From a virus, in IMG/VR virus record IMGVR_UViG_3300020221_000075, positions 1 to 30,738 of that record: a stretch of DNA of 30,738 bases, one strand, 5' to 3'. Shown here in pieces: positions 353-30,547 of the stretch. The notes below the pieces were generated by a model that was not told the DNA's origin, searched no databases, and saw nothing but the letters and a program-made list of their open reading frames with translations. How positions within the stretch are numbered: position 1 is the first letter of the stretch; every line of letters begins with the position of its first letter. Both the position numbers and the translations under genes were made by a program.

Positions 353-2086
353 ATGGCAAAAGAAAAATCATTAGTAGAAGAAGCAATCATCCAAATGAAG
401 AATTTGGAAGAGGCGGTTGCCGAAAATGCAAAAGGAATACTTGCATCAACGATGAAGCAAGAAATCAAAGATTTAGTAAAAGAATCTCTATCTGAACAAG
501 ATGAAGATGAGGTTGAAACAGATGTTGACATTGAAGATGACGCAGACATTGATATGGATGCCGAAGATGATATGGATACAGATAACGACTTAGGTGATGA
601 AGACATTGACGTTGATGTAGATGCGGATTCTGAAGATGTAATTGACTTAACAGGTCAACCTAGTTCTGAAGTTCTTAAAGTGTTTCAATTACTTGGACCT
701 GAAGACCAAATAGTGGTTACTAAAGACCCTAATGGGAACATAAACTTAAAAGATAACGAAACAAACAAAGAATATATGATAGTAGGTGAAAACATTGAAG
801 AAGAAGATTATCTGAACGAATACTCTGAATTAGGTGATATGAATGAAGAAGATTGGTCGACAGATGGAATGAATAATGAAGATATCGATGCTCTTGTTGA
901 AAGAGTTTTTGGTGTTGAAGATGAATATTCTGAAGATTCTGACTATGATGACACTTCTGACTTTGTTGGACTTGGTGGTATGGACGAAGGTGTTTACGCT
1001 GCCGTTCGCGAAGATTATGACGATGAAGCAAATATGGGTGCCTTAGATGAAGATGATTTCGATAGTATTGATATGAACAAAATGTACGGAGACGAAGGTG
1101 CTGACCAATTAGGTGAGGATAACGATGATATCGTTTACGAAATTGAATTTGATGGAGAAGAACCTGAACTTTCTGAACGGGGCCACTCTAGATATCGTGA
1201 TTTAAAATACCATTTTGGTAGACGTGGTGAAGATGAAGATGAATATGACACTACGGATGACTATAAAGATGGAGATTATGATGAACTTGAAGAATGGTCT
1301 TGGGGTGGTGCTTTAGCAGGAGGAATATCAGGAGGATTAGGTATTGATGAAGATATGGAAGAACCTGTAATGGAAAGTAAAAAAATGTCACGTAAAATAC
1401 CTGGAGTCGGAATGGGTAAACCTAAATTTTCTTATGATGGCAAACCTAACCAAAACTTACGTGTGAAAAAACAAGGTTACGGTGGTAAAGGAATTGGATT
1501 TGGAAACGCTAAAAAAGCATCTAAGTTTGACGCTGACAAAGATAATGGTCAAATGGATGGAGAATTTAGAGTTAAACCTAAAAAGTTTGAAGCAAAAGAA
1601 GCGGCACGTACATATGGTAATGGTTCTAAATCAGGAAGAGGGCTTAGAAAAGGAATCACTCCTAATAGAAACCTTACGTTTGAAAACGTTGACGCGAGAG
1701 AAATACAAATCCTTAGAGAAAAAAATGAAGAATACAGAAAAGCATTAAATATCTTCAGAAATAAATTGAATGAGGTTGCGGTGTTTAACTCAAACTTGGC
1801 TTACGCTACACGTTTGTTTACAGAACACTCAACGTCTAAACAAGAAAAAATAAATATATTAAGAAGATTTGATTCTGTAGAAACTATTAAAGAGTCTAAG
1901 AATTTATATCACCAAGTTAAGGATGAATTATCTGTGTCATCAAACCAATCACCAATCAACGAATCATTTGAAAGAGTAATTGAAAAAACTCCTTCTACAG
2001 GTTCAGCGGTTAACTTGATTGAGTCTAAGACATATGAAAATCCACAATTCTTAAGAATGAAAGACTTAATGTCAAAATTAAGATAA
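353..2086 (+). CDS. Prohead core scaffolding protein (T4 gp22-like)
   Basis: This 577-residue protein is the likely internal scaffold of the prohead, on which the capsid shell assembles and which is degraded before DNA packaging. It has an N-terminal helical segment (1-48), a very acidic Asp/Glu-rich stretch (about 50-300), a basic Gly/Lys-rich stretch (about 345-430), and a charged helical C-terminal region (about 445-577) that starts near 'REIQILREKNEEYRKAL'. The assignment rests on this architecture and on its position 43 bp before the gp23-like capsid gene, as in T4 (22-23). Several [I/L]-x-E sites fit prohead-protease cleavage, including LSE|Q at residue 48, ELSE|R and PINE|S. It is about twice as long as T4 gp22, mainly because of the acidic region. 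A gp21-like protease gene is not in the window. Confidence 0.75.
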   Translation: MAKEKSLVEEAIIQMKNLEEAVAENAKGILASTMKQEIKDLVKESLSEQDEDEVETDVDIEDDADIDMDAEDDMDTDNDLGDEDIDVDVDADSEDVIDLTGQPSSEVLKVFQLLGPEDQIVVTKDPNGNINLKDNETNKEYMIVGENIEEEDYLNEYSELGDMNEEDWSTDGMNNEDIDALVERVFGVEDEYSEDSDYDDTSDFVGLGGMDEGVYAAVREDYDDEANMGALDEDDFDSIDMNKMYGDEGADQLGEDNDDIVYEIEFDGEEPELSERGHSRYRDLKYHFGRRGEDEDEYDTTDDYKDGDYDELEEWSWGGALAGGISGGLGIDEDMEEPVMESKKMSRKIPGVGMGKPKFSYDGKPNQNLRVKKQGYGGKGIGFGNAKKASKFDADKDNGQMDGEFRVKPKKFEAKEAARTYGNGSKSGRGLRKGITPNRNLTFENVDAREIQILREKNEEYRKALNIFRNKLNEVAVFNSNLAYATRLFTEHSTSKQEKINILRRFDSVETIKESKNLYHQVKDELSVSSNQSPINESFERVIEKTPSTGSAVNLIESKTYENPQFLRMKDLMSKLR

Positions 2087-2129: not shown

Positions 2130-4010
2130 ATGGGAGCATTATTAGAATCAGGTCTTGTTGGTAACATCGGTCTTAAGCACCTTAAAGTTATCAAAGAAGA
2201 TACAATTAACAAATGGGATAGATTAGGATTCCTAGAAGGTCTAAGAGGACATTTAAAAGAGAACGTAGCTCAGTTATATGAGAACCAAGCGTCTCACCTA
2301 ATTAATGAGGCAACTTCTGACGGTTCTTCAGGTTCATTTGAAACTGTTGTTTTCCCAATCGTTAGACGTGTATTCTCTAAATTATTAGCTAACGACATCG
2401 TGTCTGTACAAGCTATGAACTTACCTATCGGTAAATTATTCTACTTCGTACCTAAAATCCAAGGGTATAAAGATGGTAGTTATGATGCGGCGACTTATTC
2501 AGGTGGTTCAGGAGAACATTACGGTCCTGTTGGAGCAGTAAACGGTTTAACTGCTGACCAAGCTAAAGCTGGTCAAGGTTATACTACAGGTACTGCGTCT
2601 AATTACAATCCTACTTACAAGAAAAATCTTTACGATTTATTCTATGAAGGTAATGAAGGTCAATTAGACCCTCCAGGATTATTTGATTACTCTAAAGGTC
2701 AGTGGTCGGCGATTACTGCAACTACAGACGTACAAGTTTGGAATGGTTCTAACTTAGTTGACGCTGATGGTCAATACAATGGCGAAAACGTAAGAAAAGT
2801 AATCGTTAAAATGTGTGGTTTTGCTAACACAGGTAATGGTAAATTAATCGGACCTGATGGAAATGAGTATGATACTGAATCATTCTTAGCAGACTTAAGA
2901 GTATTCGGGGACGAAAATTTCACAGATGATGATTCACCATGTAATGTTGTTTTTGCTGACGACGCTAAAACTATACCAAATTCTTTATTGTTCCGTGTAG
3001 TTACACAACAATATGGACAAGGAATTGTTTCTAATTTATCAACAAGAGCACAAGCATCTTGGCCTACAGAAGGAAATGGTGGATACTTTAATGATATTTG
3101 TACTCCTGATGGATGTATCTTTTTAGAAGTTGACCTTTCTTGTCCTGTATGTGCTAACTGTAACGCAACATCTTTAGATGGTTACACAGGTACTACAATC
3201 GATACATTAGGTCTTAATGACTTCACTGCAGTATTTAGACGTTACAAAGAACTTGAATTCGAAGACAAAATCGGTGAGGTTTCTTTCGACCTTGAGTCTG
3301 TAACAGTTTCTGTAACTGAAAGAAAATTAAGAGCACAATGGTCACCTGAATTGGCTCAAGACGTAGCGGCATTCCACAACATCGATGCTGAAGCTGAATT
3401 AACGGCTTTATTATCTGAACAAGTTGCGGCAGAAATCGACCGTGAAATCTTAAGAGACCTTAGAAAAGGTGCGGCTTGGAACTTACGTTGGGATTACAAC
3501 GGATGGAGAAGAATCAACGCTACTACTGCGTATACACAAAAAGACTGGAACCAAACATTGATTACTGCAATCAACCAATTGTCAGCACAAATCCACAAAT
3601 CTACTTTAAGAGGTGGAGCTAACTGGATTGTTGTATCTTCTGAGGTTTCTGCGATTTTTGATGATTTAGAATACTTCCACGTATCTAACGCGTCTCCTGA
3701 GCAAGACCAATACAACATGGGTATTGAAAGAGTTGGTACATTATCAGGTCGTTACCAAGTTTACCGTGACCCTTACTTCCCACCAAACCAAATCTTAATT
3801 GGTCACAAGGGAACGTCATTGTTAGACACAGGTTACATCTACGCACCGTATGTACCTCTACAATTAACACCTACAATGTATAACCCATTCAACTTTACAC
3901 CTATCAAAGGTATTATGACAAGATACGCTAAGAAAATGGTTAACAACCGTTTCTATGGTAGAGTAACTGTTGATGGTATCCGTACATTCGACTTAAGAGA
4001 ATTGAGATAA
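2130..4010 (+). CDS. Major capsid protein (T4 gp23-like, HK97 fold)
   Basis: This 626-residue protein forms the hexameric shell of the head. The N-terminal third has the gp23 signature 'VVFPIVRRVFSKLLANDIVS' followed by 'VQAMNLPIGKLFYFVPKI'. The C-terminal half carries the conserved segment around 'LRAQWSPELAQDVAAFHNID' and ends with 'RFYGRVTVDGIRTFDLREL'. Between them (about residues 115-355) lies a long variable insertion containing a Cys cluster (C338, C341, C344) absent from T4 gp23 as I know it. Residues 58-60 (INE) followed by A61 match the T4 prohead-protease consensus [I/L]-x-E, close to the T4 gp23 processing point at residue 65, so a 60-residue propeptide is likely. The gene stands alone between the scaffold and a strong terminator. 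Confidence 0.93.
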   Translation: MGALLESGLVGNIGLKHLKVIKEDTINKWDRLGFLEGLRGHLKENVAQLYENQASHLINEATSDGSSGSFETVVFPIVRRVFSKLLANDIVSVQAMNLPIGKLFYFVPKIQGYKDGSYDAATYSGGSGEHYGPVGAVNGLTADQAKAGQGYTTGTASNYNPTYKKNLYDLFYEGNEGQLDPPGLFDYSKGQWSAITATTDVQVWNGSNLVDADGQYNGENVRKVIVKMCGFANTGNGKLIGPDGNEYDTESFLADLRVFGDENFTDDDSPCNVVFADDAKTIPNSLLFRVVTQQYGQGIVSNLSTRAQASWPTEGNGGYFNDICTPDGCIFLEVDLSCPVCANCNATSLDGYTGTTIDTLGLNDFTAVFRRYKELEFEDKIGEVSFDLESVTVSVTERKLRAQWSPELAQDVAAFHNIDAEAELTALLSEQVAAEIDREILRDLRKGAAWNLRWDYNGWRRINATTAYTQKDWNQTLITAINQLSAQIHKSTLRGGANWIVVSSEVSAIFDDLEYFHVSNASPEQDQYNMGIERVGTLSGRYQVYRDPYFPPNQILIGHKGTSLLDTGYIYAPYVPLQLTPTMYNPFNFTPIKGIMTRYAKKMVNNRFYGRVTVDGIRTFDLRELR

Positions 4011-4559: not shown

Positions 4560-5579
4560 ATGAAAAAATTGTATTTTCTAAATGAAGAAGAAAAAGAAAG
4601 AATTTTAAAACTTCATAAGAGTGCCACAAGAAAACAATACATAACCGAAGACATGGATAATAGAATGTGTGAGGGATGTGGTAAATCAGATATGTATGAA
4701 TATTCTGAATTAGATGAAGCTGATGCGGGAGCGGTAGCGACAGGACTTGCTTTAGGTGGTGTTGTGGGAGCCGCTTTGGCTTATGTTAATTCATCTGCAG
4801 GGTCTTATAATGGTGTTAAAAAAATATTTGACGCTTGTAATGCTTCAGGTATGGGTAAATCAACAATGAACGGAGGAACTCTCGATAGTATCTCAAAACA
4901 AGTGAGAACCGCAATTGATGGATGGGGTACCGATGAAGATGCTATTAAATCGGCATTAGGACAAATCGCAACAATTCCTGATTTATGTGCGGTTAATAAA
5001 AGATATGCTGAAAATTACCCTGGTAGTACATTATTAGGTGATTTAGATGGTGATATCGATAGTGATAGTGAATGGAATAAATATGTATACCAACCATTAT
5101 TAGCAGCTAAAAGAAAATCAGAAGAACTTGGAGCAGGAAAATCTTCAGGAGGAGGTATGTTCGGAGCAATTTCAAGAAGTGCTAAAGCCGCGATGATTGC
5201 GTCTATGGTTAAATGGCAACCTTCGTGGGCTAAATATAAATGTATCCTTAACAATAAGGACGCTAAACCAGGTAAAATGTCTAATGGTAGTTATGCAATC
5301 ACAATCGGTGGTTCTGTTTATTATGACAACGGAAGATATAAAGCTCCTGATGGTACTATGAAATCGTATACATGTCCTGGCTCAACAGTAACCCCAACAA
5401 CCTCAAGTAAAACTTCTACATCAAGTAAAACCTCAACAACAGGTAAAACCGCAACTAAAACACCAAGTCCTGTGGCTCAATCCAATGTAAAACAAGTCCA
5501 AAAACTTGTTGGAGTTGCGGAAACAGGTGTGTTTGATGATGTGACTGCTAAGGCAGTTAGAACTAAATTAGGAATTTAA
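4560..5579 (+). CDS. Leader-bearing virion protein with annexin-like repeat and C-terminal peptidoglycan-binding domain
   Basis: This 339-residue protein starts with a charged helical leader (EEEKERILKLHK) ending in YITE|D at about residue 30, an [I/L]-x-E site of the prohead-protease type. A hydrophobic Gly/Ala segment follows (about 56-78, VATGLALGGVVGAALAYV), which could be a membrane or fusion-type helix. Residues about 103-185 resemble one annexin repeat, with the loop G121-W-G-T-D-E126 followed by an 'LLGDLDGD' turn. A Ser/Thr/Lys-rich linker leads to a PG_binding_1-type three-helix motif at about 305-339 (VKQVQKLVGV...GVFDDVTAKAVR). No catalytic domain is visible. It heads a set of three similar genes just downstream of the capsid gene, which fits a role as internal or ejected head protein. 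That role is inferred. Confidence 0.6.
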   Translation: MKKLYFLNEEEKERILKLHKSATRKQYITEDMDNRMCEGCGKSDMYEYSELDEADAGAVATGLALGGVVGAALAYVNSSAGSYNGVKKIFDACNASGMGKSTMNGGTLDSISKQVRTAIDGWGTDEDAIKSALGQIATIPDLCAVNKRYAENYPGSTLLGDLDGDIDSDSEWNKYVYQPLLAAKRKSEELGAGKSSGGGMFGAISRSAKAAMIASMVKWQPSWAKYKCILNNKDAKPGKMSNGSYAITIGGSVYYDNGRYKAPDGTMKSYTCPGSTVTPTTSSKTSTSSKTSTTGKTATKTPSPVAQSNVKQVQKLVGVAETGVFDDVTAKAVRTKLGI

Positions 5580-5600
5580 TAAATTAAGAAAAATATAATC

Positions 5601-6056
5601 ATGAAAAGATTAATTATAACTGAAGAAGAAAAAAGAAGTATTCTTTTAAAACACGGTAGTAAATCATTTTTAAATGAGGCTGCTAAAGACGATATTATGG
5701 CAATACAAAAATCTTTAGGTTTAACTGCGGATGGTGTGGCAGGACCTAAAACAATCTCATCTATTATCGCAAAATTAGGTGGAGGTTCATCAGCGGCGGC
5801 GACCAATAAAACCGCAACACCTACGACACCTGCAACACCAACAACCCCTACTACACCTACTACACCAACAACCCCTACTACACCTACTACACCAACAACC
5901 CCTACTACACCTACTACACCTGCCGCGGCTACCACTACAACATTCTCAGCGGCACCTGTTGCGGGGGCAACAACTTTAGAACAAGCTTGTGGTACAAGAA
6001 AAACTAATAAAGACTATAGACTTTGTAAAAAAGTATTTAACAAAACTACCAAATAA
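5601..6056 (+). CDS. Leader-bearing protein with peptidoglycan-binding domain and Thr-Pro repeat
   Basis: This 151-residue protein begins with the same kind of leader (ITEEEKRSILLKHG) ending in FLNE|A near residue 27. A PG_binding_1-type motif follows at once (about 30-62: IMAIQKSLGLTADGVAGPKT). Then comes a Thr-Pro linker of about 40 residues built from exact 27-bp repeats, and a short C-terminal segment with two Cys (QACGTRK, YRLCKKV). It lies 21 bp after the annexin-like gene and 2 bp before the third gene, so the three are probably co-transcribed. The domain order differs from its neighbour (binding domain first, not last), while leader and domain type are shared. This suggests paralogues shuffled from the same parts. 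Function beyond cell-wall binding is unknown. Confidence 0.6.
   Translation: MKRLIITEEEKRSILLKHGSKSFLNEAAKDDIMAIQKSLGLTADGVAGPKTISSIIAKLGGGSSAAATNKTATPTTPATPTTPTTPTTPTTPTTPTTPTTPTTPTTPAAATTTTFSAAPVAGATTLEQACGTRKTNKDYRLCKKVFNKTTK
5838..5918 (+). repeat. Three exact 27-bp in-frame repeats coding for a Pro-Thr linker
   Basis: The nine-codon unit (P-T-T-P-T-T-P-T-T) occurs three times with identical codons at 5838-5864, 5865-5891 and 5892-5918. Identity at third positions points to recent slippage or expansion, so copy number may vary among relatives. Confidence 0.9.
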
Positions 6057-6058
6057 TT

Positions 6059-6562
6059 ATGAAAAATACTAATATACTTAAAGAAATAAATGAAATGAAA
6101 TATCTCTTTGACTATAGGAGAGGTAAAGTTATTTCTGAACAAGAAAGTTCTGATGTGACAGATTTTGTGGTTGGTGGTAAACAAGAAGTTAGTGTTGGAC
6201 CTAAAACTGTTGCTCCGACCGTATCAAGCACTCCTTCAACAACTACTAAAACAACTAGAAAAGCCACAGGTTTAGAAGTTCAAAAATTACTCAATACAAA
6301 ATTTAGTGCTGGTTTAAAAGAGGATGGTAGAGTTGGTCCTTTAACTCTTGGTGCAATTATGAACGCTCTCGAGGGTTCATCAGGTTCATCTGCAGGAACC
6401 TCAACAGGAGTATCCACAACACCTACTACTACAGTAGCGGGTGGTTCAGTAACTTCAACAACTACGGTTGCTGGCTCAACAACACAAACTTCAACCGACG
6501 CAGCATCAGGAGGTGGTGGTATAGACCCTAATGTGGTGGGACAAGAATTTAATTTTGGTTAA
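6059..6562 (+). CDS. Leader-bearing protein with a peptidoglycan-binding-like domain, third of the set
   Basis: This 167-residue protein starts with a leader (ILKEINEMKYLFDYRRGK) ending in VISE|Q at residue 27, the third [I/L]-x-E site in this gene set. A low-complexity Ser/Thr/Val region follows, then a PG_binding_1-like motif at about 73-107 (LEVQKLLN, DGRVGPLTLGAI), then a Ser/Thr/Gly-rich tail that ends in QEFNFG. It begins 2 bp after the stop of the preceding gene and ends the plus-strand unit at a bidirectional terminator. No enzyme domain is seen. The shared leader and binding motif suggest common targeting with the two preceding gene products, perhaps packaging in the head and ejection into the cell wall; this is inferred. 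Confidence 0.55.
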   Translation: MKNTNILKEINEMKYLFDYRRGKVISEQESSDVTDFVVGGKQEVSVGPKTVAPTVSSTPSTTTKTTRKATGLEVQKLLNTKFSAGLKEDGRVGPLTLGAIMNALEGSSGSSAGTSTGVSTTPTTTVAGGSVTSTTTVAGSTTQTSTDAASGGGGIDPNVVGQEFNFG

Positions 6563-6583
6563 AAAATAAAATATAGTATAATA

Positions 6584-6612
6584 AAAAGACCGACTACAAA
6601 TCGGTCTTTTTT
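6584..6612. terminator. Bidirectional terminator between convergent genes
   Basis: AAAAGACCGA (6584-6593) pairs perfectly with TCGGTCTTTT (6601-6610) around a CTACAAA loop. The A-run on one side and T-run on the other let it work in both directions, between the plus-strand gene ending at 6562 and whatever reads rightward-to-left from 6850. Confidence 0.88.
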
Positions 6613-6613
6613 A

Positions 6614-6850
6614 TTATATGTCATCTTCAGTTCCCTTCCCAACTTGTTCCCTACTTAATACTCTAATACATTTAGAAATAACTTCAGACTCACCAAGAGT
6701 AAAGGCACTCATATTATGACAATATTTAATCGCTTCAACCAAAAGATAAATTGCTCTGTCCTTATCCATAGTATCGAGTAATACCTCTAAATGATTTTCA
6801 TCTTGTAGTTGTATATTATTAAATAATTTTCCGTATAATTTTTCTTCCAT
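6614..6850 (-). CDS. Small protein of unknown function (78 aa)
   Basis: This is a complete small reading frame with an ATG start, ending in TAA directly at the bidirectional terminator. The product is mostly helical by composition (LEVLLDTMDKDRAIYLLVEAIKYCH) with an acidic C-terminus (GTEDDI). No domain is recognised. It starts 4 bp after the stop of the 6855-7268 gene on the same strand, so the two probably share a transcript. Confidence 0.65.
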   Translation of the reverse strand: MEEKLYGKLFNNIQLQDENHLEVLLDTMDKDRAIYLLVEAIKYCHNMSAFTLGESEVISKCIRVLSREQVGKGTEDDI

Positions 6851-6854
6851 AATT

Positions 6855-7268
6855 TTAATTTAATGAACCGTTAACCTTTTCCAAAATTGTATGTAAGGAA
6901 TAGTTTATTTGAGACTTAATTTGATTTTCTAAATCAATTCTTATTTTTTCTGTTTTATTATCATACATATTTGTTAATCTATCCCAATCCCTCTGTACTA
7001 ATCTAACATCATAATGATATACATGATTAGTCATACTTACTCGTCTATCATCTAAAATAACAAATAAATCAAGAGTTGTATTTCTGATATAACGTTTACC
7101 TGATAGAGGAGCGATTAAAAACTTAGAATCGTCATGTCTAATTAAACCTCTACAAATACTAACACAAGTCCTTTCATTTTCCGACAATTCATCATCCTCA
7201 GACTTCATGAATTTATATTTTAATAATAATGACCACTTAACGTACAACCTTTTAAAAATTCTCCTCAT
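6855..7268 (-). CDS. Conserved phage-type protein of unknown function (137 aa)
   Basis: The frame is open from 7289 but the first codon there is TTG, so the ATG at 7268 (MRRIFKRLY) is chosen. An ATG at 7208 (MKSEDDEL) is also possible and would drop a basic, partly hydrophobic N-terminus. The central part has a strand-rich pattern (FLIAPLSGKRYIRN, LFVILDDRRVSMTNHVYHYD) and the C-terminus is a charged helix. It looks like a conserved small phage protein but I cannot name a family. It is transcribed leftward, divergent from the gene at 7363, and is followed 4 bp later by the 78-residue gene. Confidence 0.6.
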   Translation of the reverse strand: MRRIFKRLYVKWSLLLKYKFMKSEDDELSENERTCVSICRGLIRHDDSKFLIAPLSGKRYIRNTTLDLFVILDDRRVSMTNHVYHYDVRLVQRDWDRLTNMYDNKTEKIRIDLENQIKSQINYSLHTILEKVNGSLN

Positions 7269-7350
7269 AATTTTATTTTTTATATTCAATTAAGTATAGG
7301 ATAAAATATTGATAAAAACAGGTCTTGTTAAAAGTTTTTACATTATTAAA

Positions 7351-7358
7351 ATATTTAT
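7351..7358 (+). promoter_or_regulatory. Candidate late promoter element ATATTTAT before 7363 gene
   Basis: Exact octamer only 4 nt before the ATG. If it acts as a -10-type element, the transcript would be leaderless or the start codon would lie downstream. Confidence 0.35.
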
Positions 7359-7362
7359 AGAT

Positions 7363-7986
7363 ATGGATGAATGGATTGACGTTAATAAATTACCAATAAA
7401 TGAAGCAACGATGACTTCATTAACTGCAGGTGTTTATAACGGTCCACAAGAATTAGGTATAAAAAAATGGAAAAAATCCGAAATGGGTCCATTTTACGTA
7501 AGTTTAAAAAATGAACTTAATAAACTTAGTAAACAAAAAACTCTAAAGAATAATAAAGCTCGTGTAGTAGGAATGTGGGAAAAAGGTACTGATGGTACTT
7601 ACGATGTTCCGACACATGATGTACACACTATTAATGAAGATTTAGCGGTTTGGTTTGGTACTAAAAAGAAACCAAAAGGTTCTTCACAACCAAAAGGTCC
7701 TTGGGTTAACATATGTCGTAAAGATAAGGACGGTAAACATCCTCCATGTGGAAGGCCTAATACTGATAAAGGTGCGTACCCTAAGTGTAGAGCGGCGGGT
7801 GTTGCGGGTAAAATGTCTGATTCACAAAAGAAAGCGGCGTGTCAACAAAAAAGAGCGGCTGAGAAAAAAGATACACAAAGTGGTAAAGGTCAAAAACCTG
7901 TGATGACATCATACAAACCAAAAAAGAAAAAGACTCTTGAGGAGTCTTTATCTAAAATTATTAATAGAGTTTTAAATAGTCTTTAA
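7363..7986 (+). CDS. Cys-containing basic phage protein of unknown function
   Basis: The start is set at the ATG at 7363; the frame extends upstream only to a TTG codon. The 207-residue product has PINE|A at residue 14, again an [I/L]-x-E site. A central block (about 110-165) carries 'WVNICRKDKDGKHPPCGR', 'GAYPKCRAAGVAGKM' and 'KKAACQQKRAAEKK', a Cys-spaced basic motif that I recognise from many aquatic T4-like phages but cannot assign to a function (a DUF5872-like name is possible). The last 16 residues (LEESLSKIINRVLNSL) resemble the leader helices found at the N-termini of the genes at 9292 and 9532. The 3' end overlaps the convergent HNH gene by 15 bp. Confidence 0.6.
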   Translation: MDEWIDVNKLPINEATMTSLTAGVYNGPQELGIKKWKKSEMGPFYVSLKNELNKLSKQKTLKNNKARVVGMWEKGTDGTYDVPTHDVHTINEDLAVWFGTKKKPKGSSQPKGPWVNICRKDKDGKHPPCGRPNTDKGAYPKCRAAGVAGKMSDSQKKAACQQKRAAEKKDTQSGKGQKPVMTSYKPKKKKTLEESLSKIINRVLNSL

Positions 7987-8454
7987 CAAGTTAATAAAAT
8001 TAGTCCACGTATTTAAATCGTTCTCATTTCTACCTATATTGGCGGAATAACAACATAATACAACATTTTCTTTAGTGTAACCTTTATTTCTATCTAACCT
8101 ATCTAAAGAAGGTTGTTGGGGATGTTTCTTATAGTTTGATGGTATTAAAGGGACTTTAAACCAATAACACAAACCGTTTTGTTTTTCAAACATCTCATTA
8201 ATATCACTAACCGTTAAAGTATTTTCTAAGTTACGATGTTTTGAATCATTTATTAAGGTATTTTGCCAAAGTCTTACTCTTCTTTCTTTTTGTTTAATAC
8301 TCTCCTTGATTCTATGTTTAGGTTCTAATCTTTTTTTTCGTTTATATTCTCTTGTATCAATTAAAATACATTCTTTACATTTACTACCTCTTTGTGTTTT
8401 ATAAAAATCATTTTCTGACTTTATTTTACCACATTTACTACATTGTTTATCCAT
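7972..8454 (-). CDS. HNH endonuclease with N-terminal zinc finger
   Basis: The ATG at 8454 (MDKQCSKCGKIK) is preferred over one eight codons upstream because it places the zinc finger at the N-terminus as usual. The 160-residue product has two CxxC pairs (C5/C8 and C26/C29), a basic helical middle, and an HNH-type nuclease core 'SLDRLDRNKGYTKENV' at 116-131 followed by a Cys/Asn segment (LCCYSANIGRN). Free-standing HNH nucleases of this type often act as homing endonucleases in T4-like phages. It is separated from the upstream minus-strand operon by a terminator and overlaps the convergent gene at its 3' end, which suggests an inserted, independently expressed gene. Confidence 0.8.
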   Translation of the reverse strand: MDKQCSKCGKIKSENDFYKTQRGSKCKECILIDTREYKRKKRLEPKHRIKESIKQKERRVRLWQNTLINDSKHRNLENTLTVSDINEMFEKQNGLCYWFKVPLIPSNYKKHPQQPSLDRLDRNKGYTKENVVLCCYSANIGRNENDLNTWTNFINLLKTI

Positions 8455-8458
8455 ACTA

Positions 8459-8466
8459 ATAAATGT
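8459..8466 (-). promoter_or_regulatory. ATATTTAT-like element (ACATTTAT) before the HNH gene
   Basis: One mismatch from the recurrent octamer, ending 4 nt before the HNH ATG and lying after the terminator of the upstream operon. It could give the HNH gene its own promoter. Confidence 0.25.
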
Positions 8467-8484
8467 ATGGGTAAACATTAAAAT

Positions 8485-8514
8485 ACAAAAAAAAAGAGAC
8501 GTTTAGTCTCTTTT
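8485..8514 (-). terminator. Rho-independent terminator of the minus-strand structural/leader operon
   Basis: A 9-bp perfect stem (AAAAGAGAC 8492-8500 / GTCTCTTTT 8506-8514) encloses GTTTA. On the minus strand it is followed by a run of nine T. It lies directly after the stop codon of the 8520-8984 gene. Confidence 0.88.
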
Positions 8515-8519
8515 ATTTT

Positions 8520-8984
8520 TTAACAATAAGGTGGTGAACATCTCTTTTTACCATCGAGACCTTTTATCTTTCCTTTACAAACTTGTACTCCATGTCCATT
8601 ACTATATGCACTGGGAAATACGTCGTACCTCGCCTTGGCGGCCGCTTTACCACGAGCACATAATTTAGTACCCGTTTTCTTTCTACCTTCCATCATAACC
8701 ATATCTTTATCATCTATATTCATAGATAATTCCATACCATCTTTTTTTGACTGATTCATTATAAAATCAAAAACTTGGTCTAAAGTATTTTTAGATTCTG
8801 CAATATGGTCTTGTGCCCAATCGTGACCATTCTCTAAAATAGATTCTACCATGTTACGGTCTAAATCTAATAGTAAATCACATTGTCTTCTCATTTGTTC
8901 TAAATTAGAAAAGAACATATATCTACTACTTTCGTACGCCTCTTCCCTTAAAACTTTTTTTATAAGTGTATTTAAATTTTTCAT
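8520..8984 (-). CDS. Leader-bearing protein with a C-terminal Cys-containing phage motif
   Basis: This 154-residue protein begins with a short leader (NLNTLIKKVLRE|E, [I/L]-x-E at residue 14). A helical acidic middle region follows, then a C-terminal block of about 55 residues with 'GTKLCARGKAAAKARYDVFP', 'SAYSNGHGVQVCKGKIKG' and 'KKRCSPPYC'. That block is a recurring motif in aquatic myophages whose function is unknown; four Cys could bind a metal. It overlaps the upstream 9292 gene by ATGA and is followed by a terminator, so it is the last gene of a long minus-strand unit that also encodes tail proteins. Cargo of the head or tail is a plausible role, inferred from the leader and context. 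Confidence 0.6.
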   Translation of the reverse strand: MKNLNTLIKKVLREEAYESSRYMFFSNLEQMRRQCDLLLDLDRNMVESILENGHDWAQDHIAESKNTLDQVFDFIMNQSKKDGMELSMNIDDKDMVMMEGRKKTGTKLCARGKAAAKARYDVFPSAYSNGHGVQVCKGKIKGLDGKKRCSPPYC

Positions 8985-9292
8985 ATATTAAGATATTTCA
9001 CATATGCTTTATCTGCATATTTTATGAACTTTTCACCATATATTTTGGCTAATCTATCCATAATTAATTGGGGATTTTTTCTCATGTATCTTAAAATGTC
9101 AGCAGGGATTTGCTCATCATATTTACCAAATAAAGATTCAATCTCCTTTTCTCTTGGTTGCATTCTAACATTAGGTTCGACACTAAATTTAGAATTACCA
9201 ATCTCGTCATCAAATTCTTCGTCAGATTCATTAATAACTCTTTTAATGATTCGATTTAAATCTGATTCCGTTAATCTTACTGTCTTTTTCAT
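8981..9292 (-). CDS. Small leader-bearing protein (103 aa)
   Basis: The product starts with MKKTVRLTESDLNRI and continues IKRVINE|S, a basic amphipathic helix ending in an [I/L]-x-E site at residue 22. The rest is an acidic linker (about 23-50) and a helical C-terminal part (about 50-103, LFGKYDEQIPADILRYMRKN). No known domain is recognised. The leader is nearly the same as in the next gene upstream (9299-9532). It ends in TGA that overlaps the ATG of the downstream gene (ATGA), which indicates translational coupling. Confidence 0.65.
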   Translation of the reverse strand: MKKTVRLTESDLNRIIKRVINESDEEFDDEIGNSKFSVEPNVRMQPREKEIESLFGKYDEQIPADILRYMRKNPQLIMDRLAKIYGEKFIKYADKAYVKYLNI

Positions 9293-9298
9293 TGTTTA

Positions 9299-9532
9299 TT
9301 AATTTGAACCTGAATGGTGTCTACGACCTTCCATCTTTTCATAATAACCCTCTTTAGAACCTTTCCAATCCCAAGGTAAGTCATTTTTAATATTATAATC
9401 TAATTGTTTGTCATCAACACCTTTAAGTTTTCTCATCAATTTTTTTATTAATGTTTCTTTTTCTTCTTCTTTGATGATTCTCTTAACAATATTATGTAAA
9501 TCGTTTTCAGTTAATCTTATTATCTTTTTCAT
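9299..9532 (-). CDS. Small leader-bearing protein (77 aa)
   Basis: This begins MKKIIRLTENDLHNI and continues VKRIIKE|E, matching the leader of the following gene at most positions and ending in an [I/L]-x-E site at residue 22. The remaining 55 residues are basic and Gly/His-rich toward the end (EGRRHHSGSN). Apart from the leader no similarity is recognised. It lies 1 bp after the 9534-9722 gene and 6 bp before the 103-residue gene in the same operon. Its stub-like first six residues recur at 4452. Confidence 0.65.
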   Translation of the reverse strand: MKKIIRLTENDLHNIVKRIIKEEEKETLIKKLMRKLKGVDDKQLDYNIKNDLPWDWKGSKEGYYEKMEGRRHHSGSN

Positions 9533-25053: not shown

Positions 25054-25647
25054 TTATTGTACTTTTTTAATTTTGGTTACCTTACCTTCAAAAATGTGTT
25101 TTCCAACTTTAAATTGGAAAAGCTCATTTGATTTTTGGGTTGATTCGGTCAACAAACCGTTTTCAGATAAAACTTCTTCAACAGTTTCTCTCACAATATC
25201 TTTAATTTGTTTTGCGGTAAGTGAACTACTAATTTGATTTGGATTAGTTTGTTGTCTTTTAGGATTTGTCTCATTTATGACATTACCATTAGAATTCATT
25301 AACCTCGTAGCTTTCTCAACTAACTCATTTGATAAAGTGGGACCTGACATACCATTAGGTTGTGCAATTGGATATTCTATCATAAGTTGTTTTATTTCAT
25401 CTGGTAATTTAGACCCCATAATTCTATCTACCGTAGGTGTTTCGGTATTATAAATTGGTTTTGATTGTTCCATCATAAATTCTTGTGGAATGTTGTAATT
25501 AGCTTTAGGATTATCAAAATTTTCAGTATTGGGAATGTTGTAATTTGCCAATGGTACATTTTGACCACTTCTCGGCATTTGATTATGAATATCCATCATT
25601 TTTTTGGATATCATTAATTTTTGTAATAAATCATTTTCGTTTGTCAT
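25054..25647 (-). CDS. Probable virion-associated protein of unknown function (197 aa)
   Basis: This is a low-complexity, Asn/Pro-rich protein (two 'ANYNIP' repeats near residues 34 and 50) with a helical segment 'SLTAKQIKDIVRETVEEVLS' followed by 'ENGLLTES' (about 142-169), and a short C-terminal beta unit 'FKVGKHIFEGKVTKIKKV'. The helical segment resembles the leader helices of other genes in this window, here placed internally. It is the last gene of a five-gene minus-strand unit starting at 27646 and is followed by a terminator. No enzyme domain is seen. A structural or head-internal role is inferred from context. Confidence 0.55.
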   Translation of the reverse strand: MTNENDLLQKLMISKKMMDIHNQMPRSGQNVPLANYNIPNTENFDNPKANYNIPQEFMMEQSKPIYNTETPTVDRIMGSKLPDEIKQLMIEYPIAQPNGMSGPTLSNELVEKATRLMNSNGNVINETNPKRQQTNPNQISSSLTAKQIKDIVRETVEEVLSENGLLTESTQKSNELFQFKVGKHIFEGKVTKIKKVQ

Positions 25648-25649
25648 AT

Positions 25650-26051
25650 TTAAATGTTTTCTTCTTCATTATTAAAGACCGCGTTAATCACTACTCTTTT
25701 CATACTTCTATCACCTCTTGGATTATAACCAGGTTTTGGTGTGTTAAAATTTTCAGCGGTCGGTTTAAATGATAAAATTTTATCAAGTCTAAAAAGTCTC
25801 CACCCAGGTAATGGTTGTTCACCTTTATATCCTGTGTGTGAAGAACCTTCTTCATCCCAAGCTCTTAAAACAGGGTTATCCGCTTTACTGTAACCAAAAC
25901 AAACAGGTTCAATAACACGTAATCCCCTACCACCTGGCTCGTCACCATCATAATAAATTACTATTTTTTGTTTTTTCTTAATAGAATCTATTATAGACTC
26001 GACAGAAGCTACTTCTAAAATAAGTGATTTAGTTATGTTGTAAAGTTTCAT
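25650..26051 (-). CDS. WYL-like domain protein with leader
   Basis: This 133-residue protein starts with a short leader (KLYNITKSLILE|V, [I/L]-x-E at residue 13) and continues into a single WYL-like beta domain: 'AIKKKQ'-type helix (here SIKKKQKIVIYYDGDEPGG, 23-41), 'LRVIEPVCFGYSK' (44-56), 'VLRAWDEEG' (61-69) and 'WRLFRLDKILSF' (84-95). WYL domains bind nucleic acids or small ligands and regulate defence and transcription systems in bacteria. Here there is no DNA-binding winged helix, and the leader suggests that the protein is packaged. Its TAA overlaps the neighbouring gene boundaries by one base, giving tight coupling. The fold call is by motif pattern and is probable. Confidence 0.58.
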   Translation of the reverse strand: MKLYNITKSLILEVASVESIIDSIKKKQKIVIYYDGDEPGGRGLRVIEPVCFGYSKADNPVLRAWDEEGSSHTGYKGEQPLPGWRLFRLDKILSFKPTAENFNTPKPGYNPRGDRSMKRVVINAVFNNEEENI

Positions 26052-26349: not shown

Positions 26350-26820
26350 TTAAATTATTTTTTTAATTAAGTCGTTTATGCGTTTTAGGCTTTCGGTAAC
26401 CTCCAAATTATAATATTCGGTGTTACTACTATGACTTTTTGATGGTCTATTTAAATTGTTTATTCCATTTTTTTCATGTGGGTCTATAAATTGGTTAGGA
26501 AGAACTTCAGACCTATTTTGTTTTAAACTATGTACACCATCCCTCATTGATGTTAGGGTATTATCAACCCAATTTCTAACATAATGACCTCCATTTAATA
26601 TAAATGGTAAATCGTTTTCTCTTCCATTGAATGAATCAAACCAATTTTTCATTCTTTTTAGTTGTTGGTATGAAATTTCACCATTATCTCTAAGTTCTTT
26701 ATTTCTTCTAAAACCTTCGGTGTTTTCATCCGCACCTTGAGCTGCGTCATGACATTGTTTTAAATAGGTCATAACATCTTCAGGTAATTGGACTTTATTT
26801 CCGTATAAATCTTTATTCAC
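26350..26820 (-). CDS. Protein of unknown function with leader-like C-terminal helix (156 aa, GTG start)
   Basis: The start is GTG at 26820; no ATG is available until residue 17, and the GTG overlaps the end of the preceding gene by 8 bp, which suits translational coupling. The first ~100 residues are helical (MTYLKQCHDAAQGADE, YQQLKRMKNWFDSFN, GGHYVRNWVDNTL). The last 16 residues (VTESLKRINDLIKKII) resemble the N-terminal leader helices at 9292 and 9532 but sit at the C-terminus. No domain is recognised. Confidence 0.6.
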   Translation of the reverse strand: MNKDLYGNKVQLPEDVMTYLKQCHDAAQGADENTEGFRRNKELRDNGEISYQQLKRMKNWFDSFNGRENDLPFILNGGHYVRNWVDNTLTSMRDGVHSLKQNRSEVLPNQFIDPHEKNGINNLNRPSKSHSSNTEYYNLEVTESLKRINDLIKKII

Positions 26821-27697: not shown

Positions 27698-30547
27698 ATG
27701 TCGAGTCAAAATATAAATCAATATGTAAGGAACAACCTATACCCAAAACTTTATTTGGATAGTTATGATATGTCCCTAACATCTGATGAAACAGATTTTA
27801 ATCAGGAGGTTGTTTTCTCACCTTATTTAATCGCTCAAACATATGGTAATAAACTACCAATCAATATTGACATAAATAATATTGATACCGTCCAAAATTT
27901 AAATTTAACATATAAAAATTATAACAATAACAATATTTTTGTTTCTCAAAATTATTACAACCCTGATAAATTAGATTTGAAATGTTTTACTGCAGAAACT
28001 TCATGTGATATAGGTTTAACAGGAATTGATAACGGTTTAGTAAATAAAATGACAGGTCAAACCATAACATTTACTAAAGGTTTATTTTCAGATTTTTTAA
28101 AATTTGATAGGTTAAGTTTTGATAGAAGATTCAAAATGTTCCAAGTAACGGGGTATACAAATACTCCAAATGTAAGATTTTCTGGTTTTAATAATACCGT
28201 ATTATATGAAGTCGTTAGTAAAAACGACCCTGTAATCGGTAGATACCACGAATTATATGGAGGGTTTTATCAAGGGTTTTATAAACTTCATGGTTATGAT
28301 TATGAAATTTTTCCTGAAAGGATGACCAAAGGGTGGTCGGTCGAAATGATTCTTAAACCGAGATTATTTAATGAATATGTACTAGGACCTGGCGAGACAA
28401 CATTAAATGGGATATACCCAAATAATAAAAATACATTTTTTTATTTTGGTACTAGAGCCGAGAATAAGTTTTATCATCATGCGGATGGTACTCCTGATTG
28501 TTTTACAGGTTATACTCGAGTAACAACTCCTTTAACGGGTTTAAGTACATGCGCATGTTGTGATTTAACAATAAAGAATAGTAGATGTATATATGTATAC
28601 CCGCCAAGGTCTAAGGATGGTAAACATGACCCTAGAGTTAATTATGGTTGTGATACATGTGGTGGTTTAAAGACAAAACAGTTATCATGCGGGTGTGGTT
28701 GTGACAAACCACAATGTGAGAATTGTGGGTGGGAATGTCAAACACCCCTTTGCCCAACAACACCCACCCCAACCCCAACTCAAAGTCCTACACCAACCCC
28801 AACAAGTAATAATTGTATTGTTACCCCTACTTGTACACCTACATGTACTAAGTGTGATACTTGCGATGACTGTTTAGATTGTAAACCTGAAGGTTTTTCT
28901 TCTATTGAGGACACTTGTGAAAAGGACCCATTATACGACTCAATGTCAAATGCTTTTTCATTAAGATTATGTGGAGACCCTAAAAACCCAAAAATAGGTG
29001 TTAGATTTTTAAGATTTACAGGTGATTGTACAACTTCAGGAGAGTGTTCTACTAGTGGAATCACATACTCAACGGGATATACTATAACTGATATATGTAC
29101 ACCACCAATATACCCAAGATGTGAAAAAGAAAATCCTGCTTGGTTAAATGAAGAACATTGGTTCCAAGTTAATGTTGTTTGGGAAAGATATACTTGGTTC
29201 GATTACTGTGATTTAAAATATCGTGGTGGATTAGGTGATATAACTAAACAAGTTTATTTAGAATCTTTAGCAAATAATACAACCTCATTAATTAGTACTC
29301 CTTACACAAAAGAAAATGGTAAAGTTGCTGAAAAAATGGATATCATCAATTTAAATGAAAAATGGTTAATTGAGGGTAAAATGAGAAAGGGTAGATTAAA
29401 AATCTACATTAATGGTAAGATATTTCACACTATCGAGGATTTTGAGGAAATTATACCAAGAGCTCTAAATACTGATAAAGAAAAACAGGTTGGTGTACCA
29501 TTTAATATCTCATGGGGCGGAGGAACACAAGGGCTTAGAGAAAACTTAACCTTCTCCTCAACAACAATTCCTAATGGACCCTATATCCAAGACCCTGAGT
29601 GTTTTCCAACTAATGATTTAACGGCAACAACATTCAATGGGTTAACTACTAATATTTTAATCGAACAAAATTTTGCAGGTACTTTTGATGGAGGAATCTC
29701 ACAATTTAGAATGTATGTAGAACCATTATCGGCACCTGAAGTTAAACACAATTTTAAATTACTTGTAAGTAAATTTAATATGTTTAATCCAGATTGTCCT
29801 AATTGTTCAACAACAATATGTAAACCTGACGACATTACTTATATACTTTCTGCAGATACTCCAACCACAACAACTGAAGACCCATTTGGTAACGAACCTT
29901 TAGGTAGAAAATATATTGAGGATTTAAGAGATAAAAATTATTTGATTGAAAGGAAGTTAAAATTAACTCCTAATAAACCAACTACAATGTATTGGGAGTC
30001 CGATGAATGGTGGGGAGACCAAGGAAAAACTTCTGAATGTGTTGGTTACGCTTGGGCTCATTGGGTCGAGGACGGGCCAATCAAACATAGCGGTATCGCT
30101 CCAATAGTTCACCCAACAATTATTTATAAAGAAGCTCAAAAAATAGATGAGTGGCCTGGTGAAAATTATAAAGGAACTTCTGTTAGAGCGGGGGCCAAAT
30201 ATTTAAAGAGTATTGGTAGAATTGAGCAATATTTATGGACTTATGATATAAACGTTTTAATATCGACTGTATTAACTAAAGGACCTGTTGTTGTCGGTAC
30301 TAATTGGTACTCATCGATGAATAGACCTAATATTAATGGTTTAATGAAAGTTTCGGGTTTCAAGATTGGAGGTCATGCCTATGTTATCAATGGTGTTGAT
30401 ACAATTAAAAAACAATTTAGAATTAAAAATAGTTGGGGTCGTTCTTGGGGTAAACAAGGACATGCCTTTATTTCTTTTAATGATATGAATAAACTTATTA
30501 GACAAAACGGTGAAGTTTGTTTAGCTATAGAAAAAAGGTCTAACTAA
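27698..30547 (+). CDS. Large tail protein: LamG-like domain with Cys-rich insert and C-terminal papain-family (C1A) protease
   Basis: This 949-residue protein has four parts. Residues 1-210 are beta-rich and unassigned. From about 213 (WSVEMILKP) to about 700 runs a LamG/concanavalin-like fold with 'GRLKIYINGKIFHTIEDFEE', 'VPFNISWGGGTQGL' and 'GTFDGGISQFRMYVEPLS'. It is interrupted at about 283-410 by a Cys-rich stretch (about 20 Cys, many CxxC) with a Thr-Pro linker (about 354-370). Residues about 750-949 form a C1A protease: oxyanion Gln775, Cys781 (QGKTSEC), His893 (GGHAYVINGVD) and Asn911 (KNSWGRSWG), all in papain order and spacing. It probably binds and digests host surface protein at adsorption, or matures tail proteins; both are inferred. 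The next gene overlaps its stop by one base. Confidence 0.8.
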   Translation: MSSQNINQYVRNNLYPKLYLDSYDMSLTSDETDFNQEVVFSPYLIAQTYGNKLPINIDINNIDTVQNLNLTYKNYNNNNIFVSQNYYNPDKLDLKCFTAETSCDIGLTGIDNGLVNKMTGQTITFTKGLFSDFLKFDRLSFDRRFKMFQVTGYTNTPNVRFSGFNNTVLYEVVSKNDPVIGRYHELYGGFYQGFYKLHGYDYEIFPERMTKGWSVEMILKPRLFNEYVLGPGETTLNGIYPNNKNTFFYFGTRAENKFYHHADGTPDCFTGYTRVTTPLTGLSTCACCDLTIKNSRCIYVYPPRSKDGKHDPRVNYGCDTCGGLKTKQLSCGCGCDKPQCENCGWECQTPLCPTTPTPTPTQSPTPTPTSNNCIVTPTCTPTCTKCDTCDDCLDCKPEGFSSIEDTCEKDPLYDSMSNAFSLRLCGDPKNPKIGVRFLRFTGDCTTSGECSTSGITYSTGYTITDICTPPIYPRCEKENPAWLNEEHWFQVNVVWERYTWFDYCDLKYRGGLGDITKQVYLESLANNTTSLISTPYTKENGKVAEKMDIINLNEKWLIEGKMRKGRLKIYINGKIFHTIEDFEEIIPRALNTDKEKQVGVPFNISWGGGTQGLRENLTFSSTTIPNGPYIQDPECFPTNDLTATTFNGLTTNILIEQNFAGTFDGGISQFRMYVEPLSAPEVKHNFKLLVSKFNMFNPDCPNCSTTICKPDDITYILSADTPTTTTEDPFGNEPLGRKYIEDLRDKNYLIERKLKLTPNKPTTMYWESDEWWGDQGKTSECVGYAWAHWVEDGPIKHSGIAPIVHPTIIYKEAQKIDEWPGENYKGTSVRAGAKYLKSIGRIEQYLWTYDINVLISTVLTKGPVVVGTNWYSSMNRPNINGLMKVSGFKIGGHAYVINGVDTIKKQFRIKNSWGRSWGKQGHAFISFNDMNKLIRQNGEVCLAIEKRSN

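Follow-up and report, generated by a model that had tools for sequence, protein, structure and literature searches.

The propeptides of T4 internal proteins, known as capsid-targeting sequences (CTS), are 10–19 residues long; the first 10 residues of IPIII are enough for packaging, the IPIII leader by itself is reported to bring a foreign protein into the head, and different residues govern targeting and processing (PMC9026906). Such sequences are carried by IPI, IPII, IPIII and Alt and are removed by gp21, and the leader ends that we read in the T4 sequence are FIAE|A for ipII and ipIII and ITE|A for ipI (a vertical bar marks a cut or predicted cut throughout). Many head propeptides of the giant phages phiKZ and SPN3US are likewise cut after Glu by a prohead protease, at S/A-x-E and similar sites (PMC5694885, PMC9026906), and the T4 core proteins gp22, gp67 and gp68 are cleaved into pieces (PMC5694885). 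Here we analyse a 30.7-kb virus record with a T4-type major capsid protein (IMGVR_UViG_3300020221_000075, 30,738 nt, the whole of which we call the window), in which a sequence-only reading had proposed that the products of eight genes begin with short leaders ending in [I/L]-x-E, put there to send unrelated proteins into the head.

The leaders described below resemble the T4 CTS in starting with Met-Lys in most classes and ending in [I/L]-x-E, and the two systems share the placing of one leader on different mature proteins and a T4-type capsid protein with a matching site; a gp21-family protease is present in most of the window's close relatives examined. They differ from the T4 system in that several leader classes exist, with lengths of 10–37 residues, up to 31 leadered open reading frames (ORFs) per contig and leaders internal to polyproteins; compared by eye with MKTYQEFIAE of T4, they are alike only in M-K and in the end. 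The propeptides of phiKZ and SPN3US, unlike these leaders, are much longer than the T4 CTS, several exceeding 100 residues (PMC5694885), and are not described as one common short tag. The polyproteins reported here share multiple [I/L]-x-E sites with gp22, gp67 and gp68, from which they differ in consisting of conserved modules, with internal leaders in some. Term searches of open-licence papers found neither these leaders nor such arrays. The CTS as a kind is already known, while the scale, the exchangeable classes and the polyprotein arrays appear to be new. We think it probable that the leaders are T4-like capsid-targeting propeptides cut by a gp21-type prohead protease, in a system that exceeds in size and modularity what the sequence-only reading described.

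Leader families and the bare motif

All eight leader sites proposed for the window read as had been stated (Table 1), as does the INE|A at residue 60 of the capsid protein. Five of the eight fit the class A, B or D patterns given below, the leader of the 6059 product belongs to class E, and the 7363 product is assigned to a family with exchanged leaders. Least secure of the eight is the 26051 leader: Glu13 is found in all eight homologues (window included), but leader and mature part are conserved together, so that with the entire N-terminus conserved Glu13 gives no independent support, and for single proteins such as this the resemblance may be due to chance.

Table 1. Coordinates of the putative leaders and associated features in the window.
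Feature	Position	Strand	Remarks
Acidic scaffold-like protein	353..2086	+	gp22 position, directly 5' of capsid gene; rich in [I/L]-x-E
Major capsid protein, gp23 family	2130..4010	+	predicted cut LINE|A after residue 60 (base 2309)
Class A leader of 4560-5579 product	4560..4649	+	30 aa, YITE|D
Short class A leader of 5601-6056 product	5601..5678	+	26 aa, FLNE|A
Class E leader of 6059-6562 product	6059..6139	+	27 aa, VISE|Q
Leader of two-module 7363-7986 product	7363..7404	+	14 aa, PINE|A
Two-module polyprotein	7405..7986	+	internal junction TINE|D after residue 92 (base 7638)
Class D leader of 8520-8984 product	8943..8984	-	14 aa, VLRE|E
Class B leader of 8981-9292 product	9227..9292	-	22 aa, VINE|S
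Class B leader of 9299-9532 product	9467..9532	-	22 aa, IIKE|E
Candidate leader of 25650-26051 product	26013..26051	-	13 aa, LILE|V
C-terminal tail VTESLKRINDLIKKII	26350..26400	-	leader-like without the final Glu; resemblance by eye

Relatives were gathered by a capsid search of IMG/VR, which gave at least 80 loci, and regions were taken from nine capsid-locus contigs, eight of them entire (G001, 296 kb; G002, 272 kb; G003, 229 kb; G004, 152 kb; G006, G007, G011 and G014) plus the first 60 kb of G008 (G and L numbers are our handles for records, contigs and loci). Of 1389 ORFs with a length of 80 aa or more, 561 (40%) had an [I/L]-x-E ending at residues 10–35; shuffled sequences gave 434 ± 15, and internal windows of the 1389 gave 427. 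The N-terminal excess is therefore real, and the background is such that the bare motif is not diagnostic and was rejected as a detector of cargo. With the motif so common in genomes of this kind, the analysis was made by leader families; it is these families, and not the motif by itself, that point to cargo.

Class A leaders follow the pattern 'MKxLYFLxEEEKxRILxLHExATKxQYLxE', class B 'MKKIIRLTESDLxRIVKRVIxE', class D, which resembles the latter part of class B, 'MxNLNxIIKKVLxE', and class E 'INEMKYLFGYxRGxVISE'; a looser class C, 'MKIIITExQY', occurs in relatives. Among 2741 ORFs the patterns matched 43 (A), 52 (B), 42 (C) and 55 (D), with means on shuffled N-termini of 0.4, 0.0, 0.1 and 0.3, respectively; the set includes one T4 and one immuto stretch, in which no pattern matched. 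The resulting 192 leadered ORFs represent 184 distinct sequences, and some genuine leaders escape the patterns, among them the class A leader on G011:66112. BLAST divides the mature parts behind class A–D leaders into 99 groups, and 99 representatives, one per group, align to the consensus MKxxxxITExxxxxIxxxxIxE. Leadered ORFs (families in parentheses) number 31 (23) in G001, 23 (22) in G002, 21 (19) in G007, 15 (15) in G003, 7 (7) in G006 and 6 (6) in G004; by the patterns there are five in the window, four in G014, three in G008 and none in G011. A leader similar to that of the 4560 product stands on products of L008, L055, L005, G011, L031 and G006 that match it in the leader only, and the class E leader stands on eight ORFs (window included), three of them orthologous and the others with different mature parts.

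The end of the class B leader is sharply defined. When 32 class B sequences were picked on residues 1–12 alone, residues 13–22, which lay outside the selection, averaged 2.8 bits, with Glu22 in 31 of the 32 and I/L at residue 20 in all; past Glu22 conservation fell to 1.4 bits at residue 23 and 0.4–0.9 bits at residues 24–34. Over 780 pairs, the proportions of synonymous (pS) and non-synonymous (pN) differences in leader codons were 0.56 and 0.23, and in the following 22 codons 0.65 and 0.70. The differences in leader DNA are thus mostly synonymous, and it is the protein that is conserved.

At least 494 class B stretches were found in viral contigs. A profile built from 15 class B leaders gave 1–17 matches in each of 18 records that had been chosen for one such leader and one weak match (E 0.02) in 18 random-pattern records; by contrast, only seven of 393 Bacteroidales genomes had any class B match (E 0.01), with one or two partial matches each. 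The class B profile found nothing in immuto, Mel-JY01 or LR756511 and matched weakly only in LR756508 and T4, none of the T4 matches being convincing; tblastn of short leaders in annotated phages gave no match, the queries probably being too short. Of the 48 ORFs with homology to T4 core proteins (gp17, 18, 20, 21, 23, 25, 41, 43, 61, nrdA, rnh), none carried a leader.

LR756508, an uncultured jumbo phage of 484 kb, was observed to have a parallel leader set, 'MRLSERKLRRIVKEEISRVLRE', on 8 of the 326 ORFs in a scan of 250 kb, together with a second leader type of about nine residues, 'MKLKGILKE' (six ORFs by pattern). At the loci L370 (LR756508.1:150001-200000), L371 and L376, several leaders stand on YRG-motif proteins; Pfam gave nothing above cut-off for six LR756508 leader proteins.

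Leader exchange and the conserved Glu boundary

Three protein families have exchanged their leaders and kept the boundary. In the 8520 family (22 of 37 listed members aligned, with duplicates, truncated or doubtful starts excluded), most members have class D leaders and others class B; the boundary Glu is present in all 22 aligned orthologues, and P3 is I/L in 15. Relatives of the window neighbours 8984 and 9292 are fused under a single leader in L015 and L026. An AlphaFold2 model of the 8520 product shows a helix at residues 2–14 at a mean pLDDT (predicted local distance difference test) of 58, a low confidence that rules out its use in a fold search.

The 7363 family (A4; 33 of 50 listed members aligned, with the same exclusions) has leaders of 10 to 37 residues with little in common, identity in leader columns 23–36 being 21–63%. 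Its first junction is [I/L]-x-E in all 31 members that have it, followed by A in 24, V in three, G in three and M in one. The window protein starts at the second junction and is among the two alignment rows without letters at the first; its PINE|A lies at residue 14 of the 207-aa product and at residue 32 of a longer, TTG-started ORF.

The third family comprises head-region proteins of 316–480 aa in which Glu immediately precedes A-P in 12 of 16 members. The leaders of this E|AP family are 11 to 43 residues long and as unlike as MGNRELERLVRKIVKE and one ending RLME, and P3 is I/L in eight of the 12. The exceptions are L053 and L075 (TRE or TKE), L078 (INE|M) and L043, which lacks such a start.

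Polyproteins and internal leaders

The 7363 product of the window is the two-module form of a polyprotein, and other members of its family hold further modules and junctions; [I/L]-x-E precedes DL[AG]VWF in 31 of the 36 members that have this module. Twelve class B matches (E < 0.001) start past residue 45. Two of these (L217, L234, residues 51–53) possibly reflect miscalled starts and one lies in L198, and the remaining nine are internal leaders in 7363-family proteins (L024, L040, L046, L048, L056, L068, L073, L074 and L077), each standing right before an extra C-terminal module. A homologue of the extra module of L040 and L024 (34–36% identity) is a separate gene in L065, where it has its own leader, LLME|Q, and adjoins the 7363-family gene.

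Head genes and the prohead protease

The capsid protein of the window belongs to phrog_138 (E 2.7e-67). Among the matches listed, LINE|A is present in all 80 aligned capsid proteins and LINEATS in 60, the latter letters being those of many 7363-family members; the counterpart site of T4 gp23 is LTE|A at 65. Upstream, the 353-2086 product holds 16 [I/L]-x-E sites, compared with 8.6 ± 2.5 after shuffling (4 of 1000 shuffles get there), and T4 gp22 likewise has 16. A PHROG search of this product gave no match, so it is gp22-like by position and composition only, and across 74 scaffold-position ORFs the enrichment is modest (mean z 1.21).

The gp21-like protease gene sought in following up the sequence-only reading was found in relatives and not in the window. 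Peptidase_S77 was above cut-off in 22 of the 24 capsid-selected records searched (out of 80), and the two negative records, G004 and G020, break off some 1.3 and 2.0 kb upstream of their capsid genes. An alignment with T4 gp21 of twelve protease ORFs (ten of the clade, one immuto and one from a contig of a metagenome-assembled genome, MAG) shows that ELNHP/ELDHP and G[VI]SSR segments, which we take to hold the catalytic His and Ser, are kept across these ORFs and gp21; most of the ORFs have [I/L]-x-E sites close to both of their own ends. The T4 portal family matched seven of 11 leader records and nothing in the window.

S77 was found in 14 of the 18 leader-selected records that reach 90 kb, compared with five of 11 random-pattern contigs of that size and seven of 18 from 60 kb up; this comparison omits G001, which is already within the capsid-selected set. 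G027 and G028, and likewise G031 and G033, resemble near copies, with parallel leader positions, and at the shift between the former two the S77 gene of G027 would fall past the end of G028.

Putative cargo behind the leaders

Many cargo proteins belong to no family. Pfam, in the first 25 of 36 families, assigned the 99 representatives PG_binding_1 in five cases, phage lysozyme in two and DUF6576 in two, with single matches to LysM, GDSL lipase, LRR and SET and weaker ones to Peptidase_M78, M48 and SprT-like. NCBIfam adds LRR-type effector models and peptidoglycan hydrolases with one or two members each, and the PHROGs listed with a function are mostly endolysin, tail tape-measure or lysin families. 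The claim that the mature parts in the window are unrelated to one another stands only partly: by eye, the 4560, 5601 and 6059 products end in similar peptidoglycan-binding-like repeats, for which Pfam gave matches below cut-off in 5601 and 6059 and none in 4560. The earlier labels of annexin-like (Pfam E 0.0019) and WYL-like (E 0.013) both fall below the cut-off. An annexin-like stretch of GTDE type follows leaders of both class A and class B (L203:324-758, L202:1596-2030, G001:144682-145095 and window 4560-5579); as the class A and class B stretches have no mutual phmmer match at E 0.01, a single family for them was rejected.

Class C leaders were observed on the phage lysozymes L092:7001-7921 (-) and L117:16761-17675 (-), and are also found on a GDSL-lipase/PG-binding/tail-lysozyme fusion. 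The 748-aa product of L129:16449-18692 combines a class C leader with a SET domain (E 7.9e-9) and, below cut-off, a DHH-like part. One small class C protein, which has a stretch resembling KLLGLIKKVGFESVVKIVGSLDKTFEIFD, is represented by several paralogues scattered over 78–284 kb of G001.

The window has some further features. A tail like VTESLKRINDLIKKII is present in all eight homologues of its protein, with T-E-S in four of them. The product of 25054-25647 (-) has a conserved C-terminal V-L-x-E-N-G-L-L-x-E-S in six of eight homologues, which may represent further protease sites. By eye, the C-terminal part of the 27698-30547 product (949 aa) looks papain-like and the product of 7972-8478 (-), between leader genes, looks HNH-endonuclease-like.

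A proposed cargo-loading system and its alternatives

The reading of the leaders as capsid-targeting propeptides is supported because leaders are exchanged while the Glu is kept, because the capsid site is alike, and because the protease is present in most of the close relatives examined. While the prohead grows, the short amphipathic leader would dock a new protein onto its scaffold core, and a gp21-type (Peptidase_S77) protease would then cut after the Glu of [I/L]-x-E, a type of site that it is also expected to use in the capsid protein. This cut would free the mature cargo within the head, from which it could exit with the DNA. The few leader classes would thus be exchangeable address tags for many unrelated cargoes, and in polyproteins such sites, or leaders placed internally, would divide one module from the next. 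Targeting and cleavage of the leadered proteins are strongly implied by the sequence comparisons; their presence in virions we infer, as we do, by analogy with the T4 internal proteins and Alt, their ejection into the host. That the whole amounts to a general cargo-loading system, in which a few exchangeable leaders direct unrelated proteins, dozens of them in each genome, to the prohead, with polyproteins that dissect themselves and carry internal leaders, and with a parallel set in LR756508, is a broader proposal towards which we lean slightly.

A number of observations weigh against this interpretation. At the cut itself, the P1' residue of class B is mostly Q, N, S or E, unlike the A of the capsid protein, and P3 is V in five and M in two of the 22 aligned 8520-family members and V in four of the 12 in the E|AP family; the capsid LINE|A sits in a largely invariant stretch, so that its conservation is not specific. 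Class C, the weakest class, lacks a clean [I/L]-x-E end (E15 in 16 of 38) and may have a function other than that of a head tag: its lysozymes could be ordinary endolysins, in which case class C is no head tag, or they could be virion lysozymes. As to the protease, the window fragment gave no Peptidase_S77 match, and the co-occurrence of S77 with leaders is only suggestive and not decisive as independent proof. Neither S77 nor the T4 portal was detected in G029, G030 and G034, which have leaders; a capsid match of only 59 residues was found in G030 and none in G029 and G034, and these records may be fragments or may have another head type. Leader-like stretches also occur in a few Bacteroidales chromosomes without S77: a genome collection (84,980 species by its description) gave seven class B loci, of which two share a single MAG with an S77 gene, while the other five come from MAGs that lack S77, four of them Bacteroidales and one a different member of the Bacteroidota.

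An upstream TATTTAT element is not confined to late genes. It lies within 60 nt upstream of 44 of 57 class A and B genes, 26 of 41 class C genes and 367 of 1576 others, and, among genes with a free 50-nt upstream region, of 31 of 31, 11 of 12 and 176 of 547, respectively. As a marker of late genes it was rejected, since it is on four of four gp41 helicase genes and only one of nine capsid genes.

Among the alternatives, the one that survives best is a variant of the propeptide reading, and its probability overlaps with that reading: the leaders would be prohead propeptides, and most of the cargo would be structural or, like the core proteins of T4, would be broken down in the head, without delivery to the host. 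The 7363 polyproteins and the E|AP family do lie in the head-gene region of many relatives, and T4 gp22 is itself rich in [I/L]-x-E; the class B and C cargoes, however, are mostly small, very variable and dispersed over the contigs, which fits an arms race better than structure, and each of G001, G002, G003 and G007 has 15–23 leadered families. We regard this variant as unlikely, if worth keeping in view.

More doubtful still is the suggestion that the leader is a docking or regulatory tag unrelated to the head, for a host target, transcription or the membrane, and that the Glu is merely the end of a helix. The class C lysozymes, the three records without detected T4-type head genes and the few Bacteroidales stretches without S77, some of them beside a transposase-like gene, speak for such a tag, whereas the fixed P3 I/L and P1 Glu over unrelated leaders in the 7363 family, the linker-like use of internal leaders and the similar site in the capsid protein are hard to square with it, and we consider it improbable. 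The Bacteroidales stretches, of RLTESDL type, were observed in L352, L353, L355 and L356, and at three of these four loci the adjoining gene is a closely similar transposase-like one, presumably IS1595-like. Finally, that leaders merely look alike because [I/L]-x-E is common at the N-termini of AT-rich phages is scarcely credible: the motif is indeed found at residues 10–35 in 40% of ORFs, but the leader families stand far above shuffles and class B ends sharply and is held at the protein level, so that chance is refuted as a source of classes A, B and D by shuffles, sharp end and codon pattern.

Implications for injected proteins

To our knowledge, most of the proteins that phages inject with their DNA have been identified only in a handful of model phages, since no common sequence marks them. 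If the reading of the leaders as removable head-targeting tags is true, a conserved tag of this kind would reveal candidates for injected proteins of uncultured phages from sequence alone, and a leader search would provide a first catalogue of such candidates, with hundreds of entries to be expected from the class B stretches.

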